Origin: Natrarchaeobaculum sulfurireducens
GTDB lineage: Archaea > Halobacteriota > Halobacteria > Halobacteriales > Natrialbaceae
Assembly (NCBI RefSeq): GCF_003430825.1
Contig: NZ_CP024047.1
Coordinates: 62,001 to 126,000 of the forward strand
Direction of reading: 5' to 3'
Length of the DNA stretch: 64,000 bases
The notes under the pieces were generated by a model. The model was not told the origin of the DNA and did no database searches. It saw only the letters and a program-made list of their open reading frames with translations. The position numbers were made by a program, and so were the translations under genes. Positions 4,554 through 8,195 of the stretch are shown piece by piece (position 1 is the first letter of the stretch; every line of letters begins with the position of its first letter).

Positions 4554-7500
4554 ATGCGCGAGGCAGACGAACGGTACTTCGAGCGGCTCGAATCGCAACT
4601 CGAGGAGGCGTTCGACGTCGCCGAGGAAGCGAAAGCACGCGGTGGTGATCCCGAACCCGAAGTCGAGATCCCGGTCGCAAAGGACATGGCCGACCGGGTC
4701 GAGAACATTCTGGGCATCGAGGGCGTCGCCGAACGGGTCCGGGAACTCGAAGGCGAGATGTCTCGTGAGGAAGCCGCCCTCGTTCTCGCTGAAGACTTCG
4801 CGGAGGGCCGGGTTGGCGACTACGAGACGAAAGCCGGGAAAGTCGAGGGAGCCGTTCGGACGGCGGTCGCGTTACTCACGGAAGGGGTCGTCGCCGCGCC
4901 GATCGAAGGGATCGACAAGGTCGAGATTCTCACTAACGACGACGGCTCCGAGTTCGTCAACGTCTACTATGCCGGGCCGATCCGTTCTGCGGGTGGGACC
5001 GCCCAGGCGCTATCGGTCCTCGTCGCTGATTATACCCGCGCGCTCGTGGGCATGGCGCAGTACGAGGCTCGAACGGAGGAGATCGAACGCTACGCCGAAG
5101 AAGTCGCCCTCTACGACAAGGAAACCGGCTTACAGTACACGCCGAAGGATACGGAAACCAAATTCATCGCCAAACACCTCCCGATCATGCTGGATGGGGA
5201 GGCGACCGGCGACGAGGAAGTCTCGGGCTTTCGGGACTTAGAGCGCGTCGACACCAACAGCGCCCGCGGTGGGATGTGTCTCGTCATGGCCGAAGGGATC
5301 GCACTCAAGGCTCCGAAGATCCAGCGCTATACCTCACAACTCGATGAGATCGACTGGCCCTGGCTTCAGGACCTGATCGACGGCACCTACGACGACGACG
5401 CCGGAGCCGAGGCGGAAGCCGACGGAACTGATGATGCCGACGAGGACGATGAGGGCGATGCCGACGGGGATGATGCCAACGAGGGCGATACGGAGGCGGG
5501 CGACGGTAGCGATGACAGTACCGACGGACCACCACGTGTCGAGGCGTCGACGAAGTTCCTCCGAGACCTGATCGCCGGTCGGCCGGTTTTCGGTCACCCG
5601 TGTGCTGAAGGCGGATTCCGACTCCGCTACGGCCGTGCACGAAATCACGGGTTCGCGACCGCTGGCGTCCACCCCGCCGCGATGCACCTCGTCGACGACT
5701 TTCTCGCTACTGGAACCCAGATCAAGACCGAACGGCCCGGGAAGGCCGCCGGGGTCGTCCCCGTCGACTCCATCGAGGGACCGACCGTCAAACTCGCTAA
5801 CGGCGACGTCCGACAGGTCGACGACCCCAAAGCGGCCCTCGAGATCCGAAACGGCGTCGAGAAGATCCTCGACCTCGGTGAGTACCTCGTCAACTACGGC
5901 GAGTTCGTCGAAAACAACCACTCGCTCGCGCCCGCATCCTATACCCCCGAGTGGTGGATTCAGGATCTCGAGGCCGCCGGTGCGGACGTCCAGGCGCTGC
6001 AGGACGATCCTCGGATCGACCTCGAGCATCCCCGCGCCGACCGAGCCCTCGAGTGGGCCACGGCCTACGACGCGCCGCTTCACCCCGCCTACACCTACCT
6101 CTGGCACGACCTCTCAGTCGAAGCGTTCTGTGCTCTCGCCGACGCCGTCACCGATGGCCGTGTCGAGACGACGGACGACGGGGACGTCCTCGTTCTCCCC
6201 TACGACGAGGCCACCTGCGACGCACTCGAGACGATCGTGATCGAACACCGCCAGCGCGAGTCCGCAGCCCGGATCGAGCTCGACGACTGGAAGCCGTTCG
6301 TCCGCTCGCTGGGGTGTGCGATCCGGCAGACGGCGACCGACGGGGCCGCCCTCGAGTCAGCCGACCGGGAGACCACGACGGTCGAACTCGAGCGCACCTG
6401 GACCGACGACGACCTCTCCGAGCGTGCCCGCATGTGGGGTGAAAAGACGGGGAACAACGCCGTCGAGGCGGTCAACGAGGTCGCCCCGTTCGAGATCCGC
6501 GAGCGTGCGCCGACCCGGATCGGCAACCGAATGGGCCGCCCGGAGAAGTCCGAACGTCGTGACCTGAGCCCGCCGGTTCACACGCTCTTTCCCATCGGCG
6601 AGGCCGGCGGCGCACAGCGAAACGTCGCCGACGCGGCCAAACACGCCGAGACGATGCGCGATACGCCGGGTGTCGTCGAACTCCAGATCGGCCGCCAGCG
6701 CTGTGAGCACTGCGAGACGGAGACGTTCAAGAACCGTTGTCCCGACTGCGGCGAGCGGACGACGCCCGACTACCGCTGTCCCGACTGCGACCAGCAGGTC
6801 GAACCCGACGAGGCCGGTCGCGTCGAGTGTGGCCGCTGTGAGGTCGACGCGACCTGCGTCGAGTTCCGCGAAGTCGACATCAACGACGAGTTCCGAAGCG
6901 CCCTCGAGTCGGTCGGCGAACGTGAGAACGCCTTCGAAATTCTGAAAGGTGTTAAGGGGCTGACTTCAACGACCAAGATCCCTGAACCGATCGAGAAGGG
7001 CGTCTTACGTGCGAAACACGACGTTTCGGCGTTCAAAGACGGCACCGTCCGCTACGACATGACCGACCTCCCCGTCACGGCGGTCCGAGCGAGCGAACTC
7101 GACGTCGACGTCGGCCAGCTTCAGGCGCTGGGCTACGAGACGGACGTCCACGGCGATCCACTTAGACACGAAGACCAGCTCGTCGAACTCAACGTCCAGG
7201 ACATCGTCCTCTCGGATGGCGCAGCCGAGCACATGATGCAGACGGCCGACTTCATCGACGACCTCCTCGAGCAGTACTACGGCCTCGAGCCGTTCTACGA
7301 ACTCGAGGATCGCCAGGACCTCGTGGGTGAGCTGGTCTTCGGGATGGCTCCACACACGAGTGCAGCAACTGTCGGAAGGGTGATCGGATTTACGAGTGCG
7401 GCGGTCGGATACGCTCATCCGTACTTTCATGCCGCGAAACGAAGAAATTGCGACGGTGACGAAGACTGCGTAATGCTCCTTATGGATGGACTTCTCAATT

Positions 7501-8195
7501 TCAGTCGGAGTTTTCTCCCCGACAAACGGGGTGGTCGAATGGATGCGCCGCTTGTCATGTCCTCCCGGATCGACCCCTCCGAGATCGACGACGAGGCTCA
7601 CAACATGGATATCGTCTCGGAGTACCCACGCGAGTTCTACCTCGCGACCTTAGAGCAGGCAGACCCCGGTGAGGTCGACGTGAAAATCGCCGAGGAGACC
7701 CTGGGGACCGACCTCGAGTACACCGGCTTTGCTCACACCCACGACACGACCGACATCGCGATGGGGCCGGACCTGTCGGCGTACAAGACGCTGGGGTCGA
7801 TGATGGACAAGATGGACGCCCAACTAGAACTCTCGCGGAAACTCGAGTCGGTCGACGAGACCGACGTCGCAGAGCGAGTCATCGAGTATCACTTTTTGCC
7901 GGACCTGATCGGCAACTTGCGGGCCTTTTCACGACAGGAGACTCGGTGTCTCGACTGCGGCGAAAAGTTCCGGCGGATGCCCCTGACCGGCGACTGCCGG
8001 GAGTGTGGTGGTCGGGTCAACCTCACTGTTCACAAGGGCTCGGTGAACAAGTACATGCAGACGGCGATCAACGTCGCCGAGGAGTACAACTGCCGCGACT
8101 ACACGAAACAGCGGTTAGAGGTGTTAGAGCGAGCGCTCGAGAGCATCTTCGAGAACGACAAAAACAAACAGTCCGGTATCGAGGACTTCATGTGA
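4554..8195 (+). CDS. polC: DNA polymerase D large subunit DP2 (replicative polymerase)
   Basis: The catalytic subunit of archaeal family-D polymerase has 1213 residues and works with the small exonuclease subunit DP1, which is not in this window. Visible landmarks: the N-terminal domain to about residue 270; a haloarchaeal acidic linker (about residues 281-327); a zinc cluster beginning at C717 (CEHC, CPDC and CPDC pairs); the catalytic motif NCDGDED at residues 965-971 with D967 and D969 the likely metal ligands; and a second zinc site from C1132. The C-terminus ends QSGIEDFM, a PIP-box-like PCNA-binding tail. The gene is uninterrupted, with no intein present, but codon use is atypical on both sides of N965/C966 (see findings). 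Confidence 0.97.
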   Translation: MREADERYFERLESQLEEAFDVAEEAKARGGDPEPEVEIPVAKDMADRVENILGIEGVAERVRELEGEMSREEAALVLAEDFAEGRVGDYETKAGKVEGAVRTAVALLTEGVVAAPIEGIDKVEILTNDDGSEFVNVYYAGPIRSAGGTAQALSVLVADYTRALVGMAQYEARTEEIERYAEEVALYDKETGLQYTPKDTETKFIAKHLPIMLDGEATGDEEVSGFRDLERVDTNSARGGMCLVMAEGIALKAPKIQRYTSQLDEIDWPWLQDLIDGTYDDDAGAEAEADGTDDADEDDEGDADGDDANEGDTEAGDGSDDSTDGPPRVEASTKFLRDLIAGRPVFGHPCAEGGFRLRYGRARNHGFATAGVHPAAMHLVDDFLATGTQIKTERPGKAAGVVPVDSIEGPTVKLANGDVRQVDDPKAALEIRNGVEKILDLGEYLVNYGEFVENNHSLAPASYTPEWWIQDLEAAGADVQALQDDPRIDLEHPRADRALEWATAYDAPLHPAYTYLWHDLSVEAFCALADAVTDGRVETTDDGDVLVLPYDEATCDALETIVIEHRQRESAARIELDDWKPFVRSLGCAIRQTATDGAALESADRETTTVELERTWTDDDLSERARMWGEKTGNNAVEAVNEVAPFEIRERAPTRIGNRMGRPEKSERRDLSPPVHTLFPIGEAGGAQRNVADAAKHAETMRDTPGVVELQIGRQRCEHCETETFKNRCPDCGERTTPDYRCPDCDQQVEPDEAGRVECGRCEVDATCVEFREVDINDEFRSALESVGERENAFEILKGVKGLTSTTKIPEPIEKGVLRAKHDVSAFKDGTVRYDMTDLPVTAVRASELDVDVGQLQALGYETDVHGDPLRHEDQLVELNVQDIVLSDGAAEHMMQTADFIDDLLEQYYGLEPFYELEDRQDLVGELVFGMAPHTSAATVGRVIGFTSAAVGYAHPYFHAAKRRNCDGDEDCVMLLMDGLLNFSRSFLPDKRGGRMDAPLVMSSRIDPSEIDDEAHNMDIVSEYPREFYLATLEQADPGEVDVKIAEETLGTDLEYTGFAHTHDTTDIAMGPDLSAYKTLGSMMDKMDAQLELSRKLESVDETDVAERVIEYHFLPDLIGNLRAFSRQETRCLDCGEKFRRMPLTGDCRECGGRVNLTVHKGSVNKYMQTAINVAEEYNCRDYTKQRLEVLERALESIFENDKNKQSGIEDFM

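Follow-up and report, generated by a model that had tools for sequence, protein, structure and literature searches.

The polC gene of Natrarchaeobaculum sulfurireducens, studied in a window of 64,000 nucleotides (the whole stretch of DNA analyzed), raises the question of why a short run of unusual codons surrounds the Asn-Cys junction of the motif NCDGDED in a gene without an intein. The earlier note had read this run as the scar of one intein gained and then precisely lost, or as donor flanks taken up alone. The features concerned are the following.

4554-8195, plus strand: polC, DNA polymerase D large subunit DP2, intein-free allele of 1213 aa (open reading frame; Pfam PF03833, PF24844, and PF24846)
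7347-7544, plus strand: codon-scrambled island, codons 932-997, with low GC3, excess synonymous divergence, and a conserved protein (GC3 scan, relatives)
7446-7451, plus strand: intein site a (presumably pol-IIa), N965/C966 in NCDGDED, occupied in relatives

Codon usage and synonymous divergence in polC

The three PolC_DP2 Pfam domains were all matched in the 1213-aa product of polC, and the reading frame was unbroken over its whole length, with no intein in the window allele. The island borders were set by a maximum-segment GC3 scan as the best low-GC3 segment of the gene. GC3 was 0.47 in codons 932-997 and 0.80 elsewhere in polC (0.50 versus 0.80 outside in the interval originally described), and an equally strong segment appeared in 1 of 5000 codon-order shuffles. 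The unusual-codon patch was thereby recovered, as was its claimed centering on N965/C966, with a segment midpoint of 7445.5 and the border at 7448/7449. The codons named as rare elsewhere in the gene were mostly enriched in the patch relative to the rest of polC, namely, AGT (4 versus 1), AAT (2 versus 1), AGG (1 versus 0), AGA (1 versus 1), GGA (4 versus 7), TTT (3 versus 6), and CTT (2 versus 5); GAT, also named, was found 2 times in the patch versus 21 times in the rest and is not rare in the gene. Compared with the closest relative, nucleotide identity was 0.763 in the patch and 0.90 in the rest of polC. The second-lowest GC3 stretch of the gene (0.65 to 0.70, window positions 5364-5723) lies in and after an acidic linker, the protein sequence of which is poorly conserved.

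At fourfold sites, the rest of polC was composed of C 0.59, G 0.31, A 0.04, and T 0.05, compared with C 0.27 to 0.30, G 0.40, A 0.17 to 0.19, and T 0.11 to 0.17 in the island left of site a in empty (intein-free) alleles. The island is thus a loss of the host preference for C-ending codons rather than a plain gain of A+T. Its base composition was similar to that inside full-length inteins of site a (C 0.32, G 0.33, A 0.15, and T 0.19).

Divergence between relatives was scanned in 64-codon windows over 112 close pairs. The window of codons 929-992 had a mean z of -3.13, with 47% of pairs below -3, which denotes an excess of synonymous divergence; outside the patch, at most 5% of pairs fell below -3 in any window, and the island was the only region of polC with such an excess. 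Over 179 close pairs, amino acid change per codon was lowest left of site a (0.0014), reached 0.022 on its right side, and stood at 0.064 elsewhere in polC. Because the synonymous excess coincides with this low amino acid change, the island combines fast synonymous sites with a conserved protein. The transition/transversion ratio was hardly changed (0.43 to 0.45 in the island versus 0.35 in the rest). Deamination-type hypermutation was rejected on the lack of a large rise in this ratio and on the increase of G left of site a. An overlapping gene was rejected as well, the other frames being closed in 91 to 98 of the 98 empty alleles, except for one antisense frame closed in 41, and so was a structured RNA (fold z-score of 0.34, no Rfam match).

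Inteins and the island in relatives

In Natrialbaceae, 118 polC alleles were fetched, the sampled family including Natrialba, Natrinema, and Natronococcus. Of these alleles, 72 were intein-free, 35 carried an intein at site a only, and 11 at both site a and a second site, b:

7533-7538, plus strand: intein site b, G994/995, border at 7535/7536, occupied in 11 relatives

The statement that N965/C966 is an intein site proved correct, with an intein inserted exactly there in 46 of the 118 family alleles (178 to 508 aa, starting CFHP after N965) and in a further 55 fetched alleles from other families. The double-intein alleles combined a 178- to 182-aa intein at site a with a 517-aa intein at site b. 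Site b, absent from the earlier note, forms the right edge of the island. Codon 995 encodes the +1 Ser in site-b-occupied alleles, mainly Lys or Arg in empty ones, and Arg (R995) in the window; invasion of site b would therefore have to change a residue, by analogy with the Pro/Ser case at MCM-d. We take sites a and b to be pol-IIa and pol-IIb, respectively. Both of the latter are known as intein alleles in Halobacteria (Soucy et al. 2014, PMC4071816).

Two further observations concern intein mobility in these genomes. The genome of the window has an intein-sized insertion in an MCM gene (contig C3, near 3163018; a 1349-aa frame in which the Pfam match ends at profile position 135), yet its polC and polB are intein-free. 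In one genus, two species, one with a 494-aa intein (locus L080, genome G110) and one intein-free (L147, G113), matched almost perfectly from codon 916 to beyond codon 1060, a shared stretch in which a recent exchange or an intein gain or loss appears to be visible.

The island was found in almost all of the 118 sampled Natrialbaceae and in many other haloarchaea. Mean patch GC3 was 0.66 without an intein, 0.72 with an intein at site a only, and 0.73 with inteins at both sites, compared with 0.87 in the rest of the gene. After correction for amino acid and genome, the GC3 residual of intein-free alleles ranged from -0.19 to -0.28 at codons 931-990 and stayed within about 0.1 of zero elsewhere. 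The edges were sharp throughout the family, the left one near codon 931 and the right one at codons 991-1005. Families other than Natrialbaceae were polymorphic, with strong dips in Halorubrum, Haloarcula, Halorientalis, and Natronomonas; no dip was present in the sampled polC of Halolamina pelagica, Haladaptatus salinisoli, and Halovenus, and no clear dip was found in the non-haloarchaeal archaea sampled. Some rare codons were strongly conserved, namely, ACT at T939 (99 of 119) and CAT at H955 (104 of 119), and the GC3-rich Halorubrum (0.96) had several of the same ones (ACT939, AGA942, CAT955, and TTT958). One genus (g2; genomes G001 to G006, loci L081 to L085 and L097) showed almost no codon dip, and five of its six polC alleles were occupied.

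These distributions bear on the proposed scar. It has the position of the patch at an intein site and its intein-like composition in its favor, and the association between patch and inteins stood up statistically. The attribution to one lost intein or to donor flanks in this genome did not. A patch with the same edges was present in the 72 intein-free and the 46 occupied relatives. The phylogenetic signal of the patch was ordinary: the nearest neighbor belonged to the same genus in a fraction of 0.60, against 0.39 to 0.67 in control windows, and the expected discordance with the gene was not found. Both results had been named beforehand as grounds against the scar, and because both were obtained, the one-off scar is refuted as a general account. 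Beside the intein, codon usage was also nearer to normal in occupied alleles than in empty ones, the opposite of what a scar leads one to expect. It is accordingly extremely improbable that the lineage of the window once gained an intein and lost it precisely, or that it took up donor flanks. Wholesale horizontal transfer of the patch was likewise rejected, as the codon-identity kappa of the island tracked that of the rest of polC (with wide scatter) and the genus signal was normal.

Empty and occupied alleles and other intein-target genes

Empty and occupied alleles were compared over all families (133 empty and 59 full-length-intein polC alleles), and two parts of the island behaved differently.

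7344-7418, plus strand: left part of the island, codons 931-955, equally deviant in empty and occupied alleles (allele comparison)
7443-7466, plus strand: codons 964-971 around site a, with the peak wobble difference between empty and occupied alleles (allele comparison)

Codons 931-955 deviated about equally in both groups, whereas codons near site a were closer to normal in occupied alleles. The strongest single codons were R964 (P = 3e-4), N965 (AAT in empty and AAC in occupied alleles, P = 7e-5), G968 (GGT in empty and GGC in occupied alleles, P = 8e-4), and D971 (more GAT in empty alleles, P = 4e-4). In the window, codons 964-968 read AGA AAT / TGC GAC GGT and codon 971 is GAC, the occupied type. 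When occupancy was permuted only inside 26 genera, the difference in GC3 residual held at codons 956-965 (P = 0.0002), 966-975 (P = 0.0006), and 976-985 (P = 0.0014), and was not significant at 901-955 and 1006-1040. Codons 964, 965, 968, and 971 had been chosen from overlapping data, and the within-genus test of these four codons is thus not independent. Divergence between empty and occupied alleles at codons 956-994 exceeded the prediction from gene distance (P = 0.003), compared with P = 0.4 in a control stretch. Such a near-site signal would be expected from escape from recognition and from short co-conversion alike.

The left part, codons 931-955, is also where the strongly conserved rare codons ACT939, CAT955, and GGA952 occur, shared with Halorubrum and independent of occupancy. 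It is perhaps another intein target outside the sample, or under a separate constraint.

Comparable dips were found in other intein-target genes. In the mcm alleles lacking an intein, GC3 dipped most deeply inside the gene at codons 326-345 around GDPGTGK^S (Walker A), with another dip at 386-405; the deepest internal dip of polB was at 581-640, from VIMN^SLYG to YGD^TDS, and that of class II RNR (six alleles) at 421-440, containing NP^CGE. The mcm K^S and polB N^S insertion sites were confirmed in occupied genomes, and the polB TDS and class II RNR NPCGE motifs are presumably intein sites too. No internal dip was present in AtpA (with its P-loop), AtpB, RadA, the C-terminal half of RpoB, or the RNR paralog, in which dips occurred at gene ends only; for RadA and AtpB, 11 of 30 and 19 of 30 loci, respectively, were used, the rest having aligned badly and been dropped. 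An effect of active-site codons as such was rejected because AtpA and RadA, the P-loop controls, lack the dip. The mcm and polB dips occurred irrespective of occupancy, and no significant near-site difference between empty and occupied alleles was detected at mcm-a and polB N^S with 9 to 30 alleles per group (none in polB, weak at most in mcm).

Origin of the island and comparison with known systems

The patch is best read as the window's copy of an island of recurrent synonymous turnover around intein sites, probably reflecting escape from cleavage and from homology-dependent invasion, a reading to which we give about even confidence. Inteins with homing endonucleases would repeatedly cut and invade the target sites, and the host gene would answer with synonymous changes, because the catalytic protein sequence cannot change. 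Changes beside the site would weaken endonuclease recognition, those spread over about 100 bp would reduce the flanking homology available to homing repair, and with rare sequence variants favored again and again, synonymous sites would turn over fast and GC3 would be low. The allele in the window, presently unoccupied, would then carry partly escape-type codons at site a. Homing of haloarchaeal inteins consists of endonuclease cleavage and homologous recombination, and in Haloferax volcanii, polB homing reached 90% with 850 bp of flank homology, 67% with 500 bp, and 20% with 250 bp (PMC3024317). Because inteins target conserved motifs, hosts have difficulty in becoming immune (PMC2814812). 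Several points count against the homing footprint: codons 931-955 show no significant difference between the two allele types, the near-site difference does not extend to polB and is weak at most in mcm, the occupied genus g2 is almost dip-free, the edges are sharper than a process decaying with distance would give, and the conserved rare codons (ACT939 and CAT955) fit constant turnover poorly. A further point against it is the published statement that homing endonucleases tolerate single synonymous changes (PMC3024317).

Recurrent co-conversion, in which homing copies a short donor flank along with the intein and cycles of gain and loss make the flanks part of the intein lineage with its codon composition, would account for the similar fourfold compositions of island and intein, and for the MCM-d inteins it has been inferred that sometimes at least the last extein codon moves with the intein (PMC10643990). 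Three hosts (L063, L075, and L077) have inteins 96 to 97% identical and different flank codons. L075 and L077, from different genera and with inteins 97% identical, showed few differences over about 15 codons per side; this stretch was not shared by the pairs L063/L075 or L063/L077, and in L063/L075 the flanks differed within 10 codons upstream despite 97% intein identity. With the rest of the gene controlled for, the partial Mantel correlation between patch and intein distances was 0.57 in mini-intein alleles, where it is confounded by the double-intein (site b) group, and 0.10 (P = 0.06) with full-length inteins. The lesser deviation of intein-adjacent flanks than of empty alleles, the near absence of a dip in the occupied g2 alleles, and the genus-level signal kept by the patch, within which a few exchanges inside genera were present, make this explanation unlikely.

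Inaccurate repair of repeatedly cut empty alleles could create a local synonymous hotspot that ends once an intein occupies the site, and it would fit both the relief of near-site deviation in occupied alleles and a turnover that appears to arise in place rather than by exchange between genera. A transition/transversion ratio close to that of the rest of the gene, a rise of G left of site a instead of a simple C-to-T bias, and a dip lacking a peak at the cut render such break-associated mutagenesis distinctly unlikely. Alternatively, the segments could serve a function in translation or at the RNA or DNA level, such as slowing translation or acting as a regulatory element, that has nothing to do with inteins, the shared catalytic motifs being a coincidence. 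This idea draws on the conservation of some rare codons across families, such as ACT939 and CAT955 in the GC3-rich Halorubrum. It is very unlikely given several haloarchaeal lineages that have a very similar protein and no dip, the P-loop segments of AtpA and RadA without one, the RNA fold and Rfam results, and the mostly closed alternative frames.

Returning to the homing footprint, we infer from these sequence comparisons that the turnover is driven by selection and not by mutagenesis or a build-up of co-conversion. The islands might further act as a synonymous camouflage of roughly 60 to 200 bp, in which codons are continually rescrambled and the protein is left unchanged, defeating both endonuclease recognition and flank homology; we regard this as possible while inclining to doubt it. 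Camouflage of this kind would be a host counterstrategy confined to the synonymous sites of essential genes. The genus-matched synonymous divergence at the target and the matching islands in other intein-target genes suggest that hosts may fight back at the only level still open to change, a matter of relevance to the resistance that gene-drive-like elements encounter in nature. The islands could also reveal past homing pressure from sequence alone, with intein targets marked even in intein-free genomes. They also caution that a local codon anomaly in a conserved gene need not mean horizontal transfer.

A search of open-licence papers turned up no description of codon islands around intein sites. 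The same gene was treated by Soucy et al. (2014, PMC4071816), in whose text a search found no mention of codons, flanks, or GC content; here, occupancy was 46 of 118 at the N/C junction of NCDGDED, 11 of them also at G994/S, and the finding differs in that the window allele is empty and the codon island lies in the extein. The MCM inteins share the haloarchaeal homing setting, with co-conversion and invasion-resistant alleles, and the Pro/Ser difference at MCM-d resembles the lack, in empty site-b alleles, of the Ser of occupied ones (PMC10643990). There, resistance is put down to an amino acid that prevents splicing, whereas the polC signal is synonymous, covers some 200 bp, and occurs whether or not an intein is present. 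Nuclease resistance through allelic differences in host gene sequence is also known from the yeast WHO homing elements and cleavage-resistant FBA1 (PMC7282813); WHO itself supplies the resistant sequence when it replaces the 3' end of FBA1, whereas the variation in polC mostly appears to arise in place.
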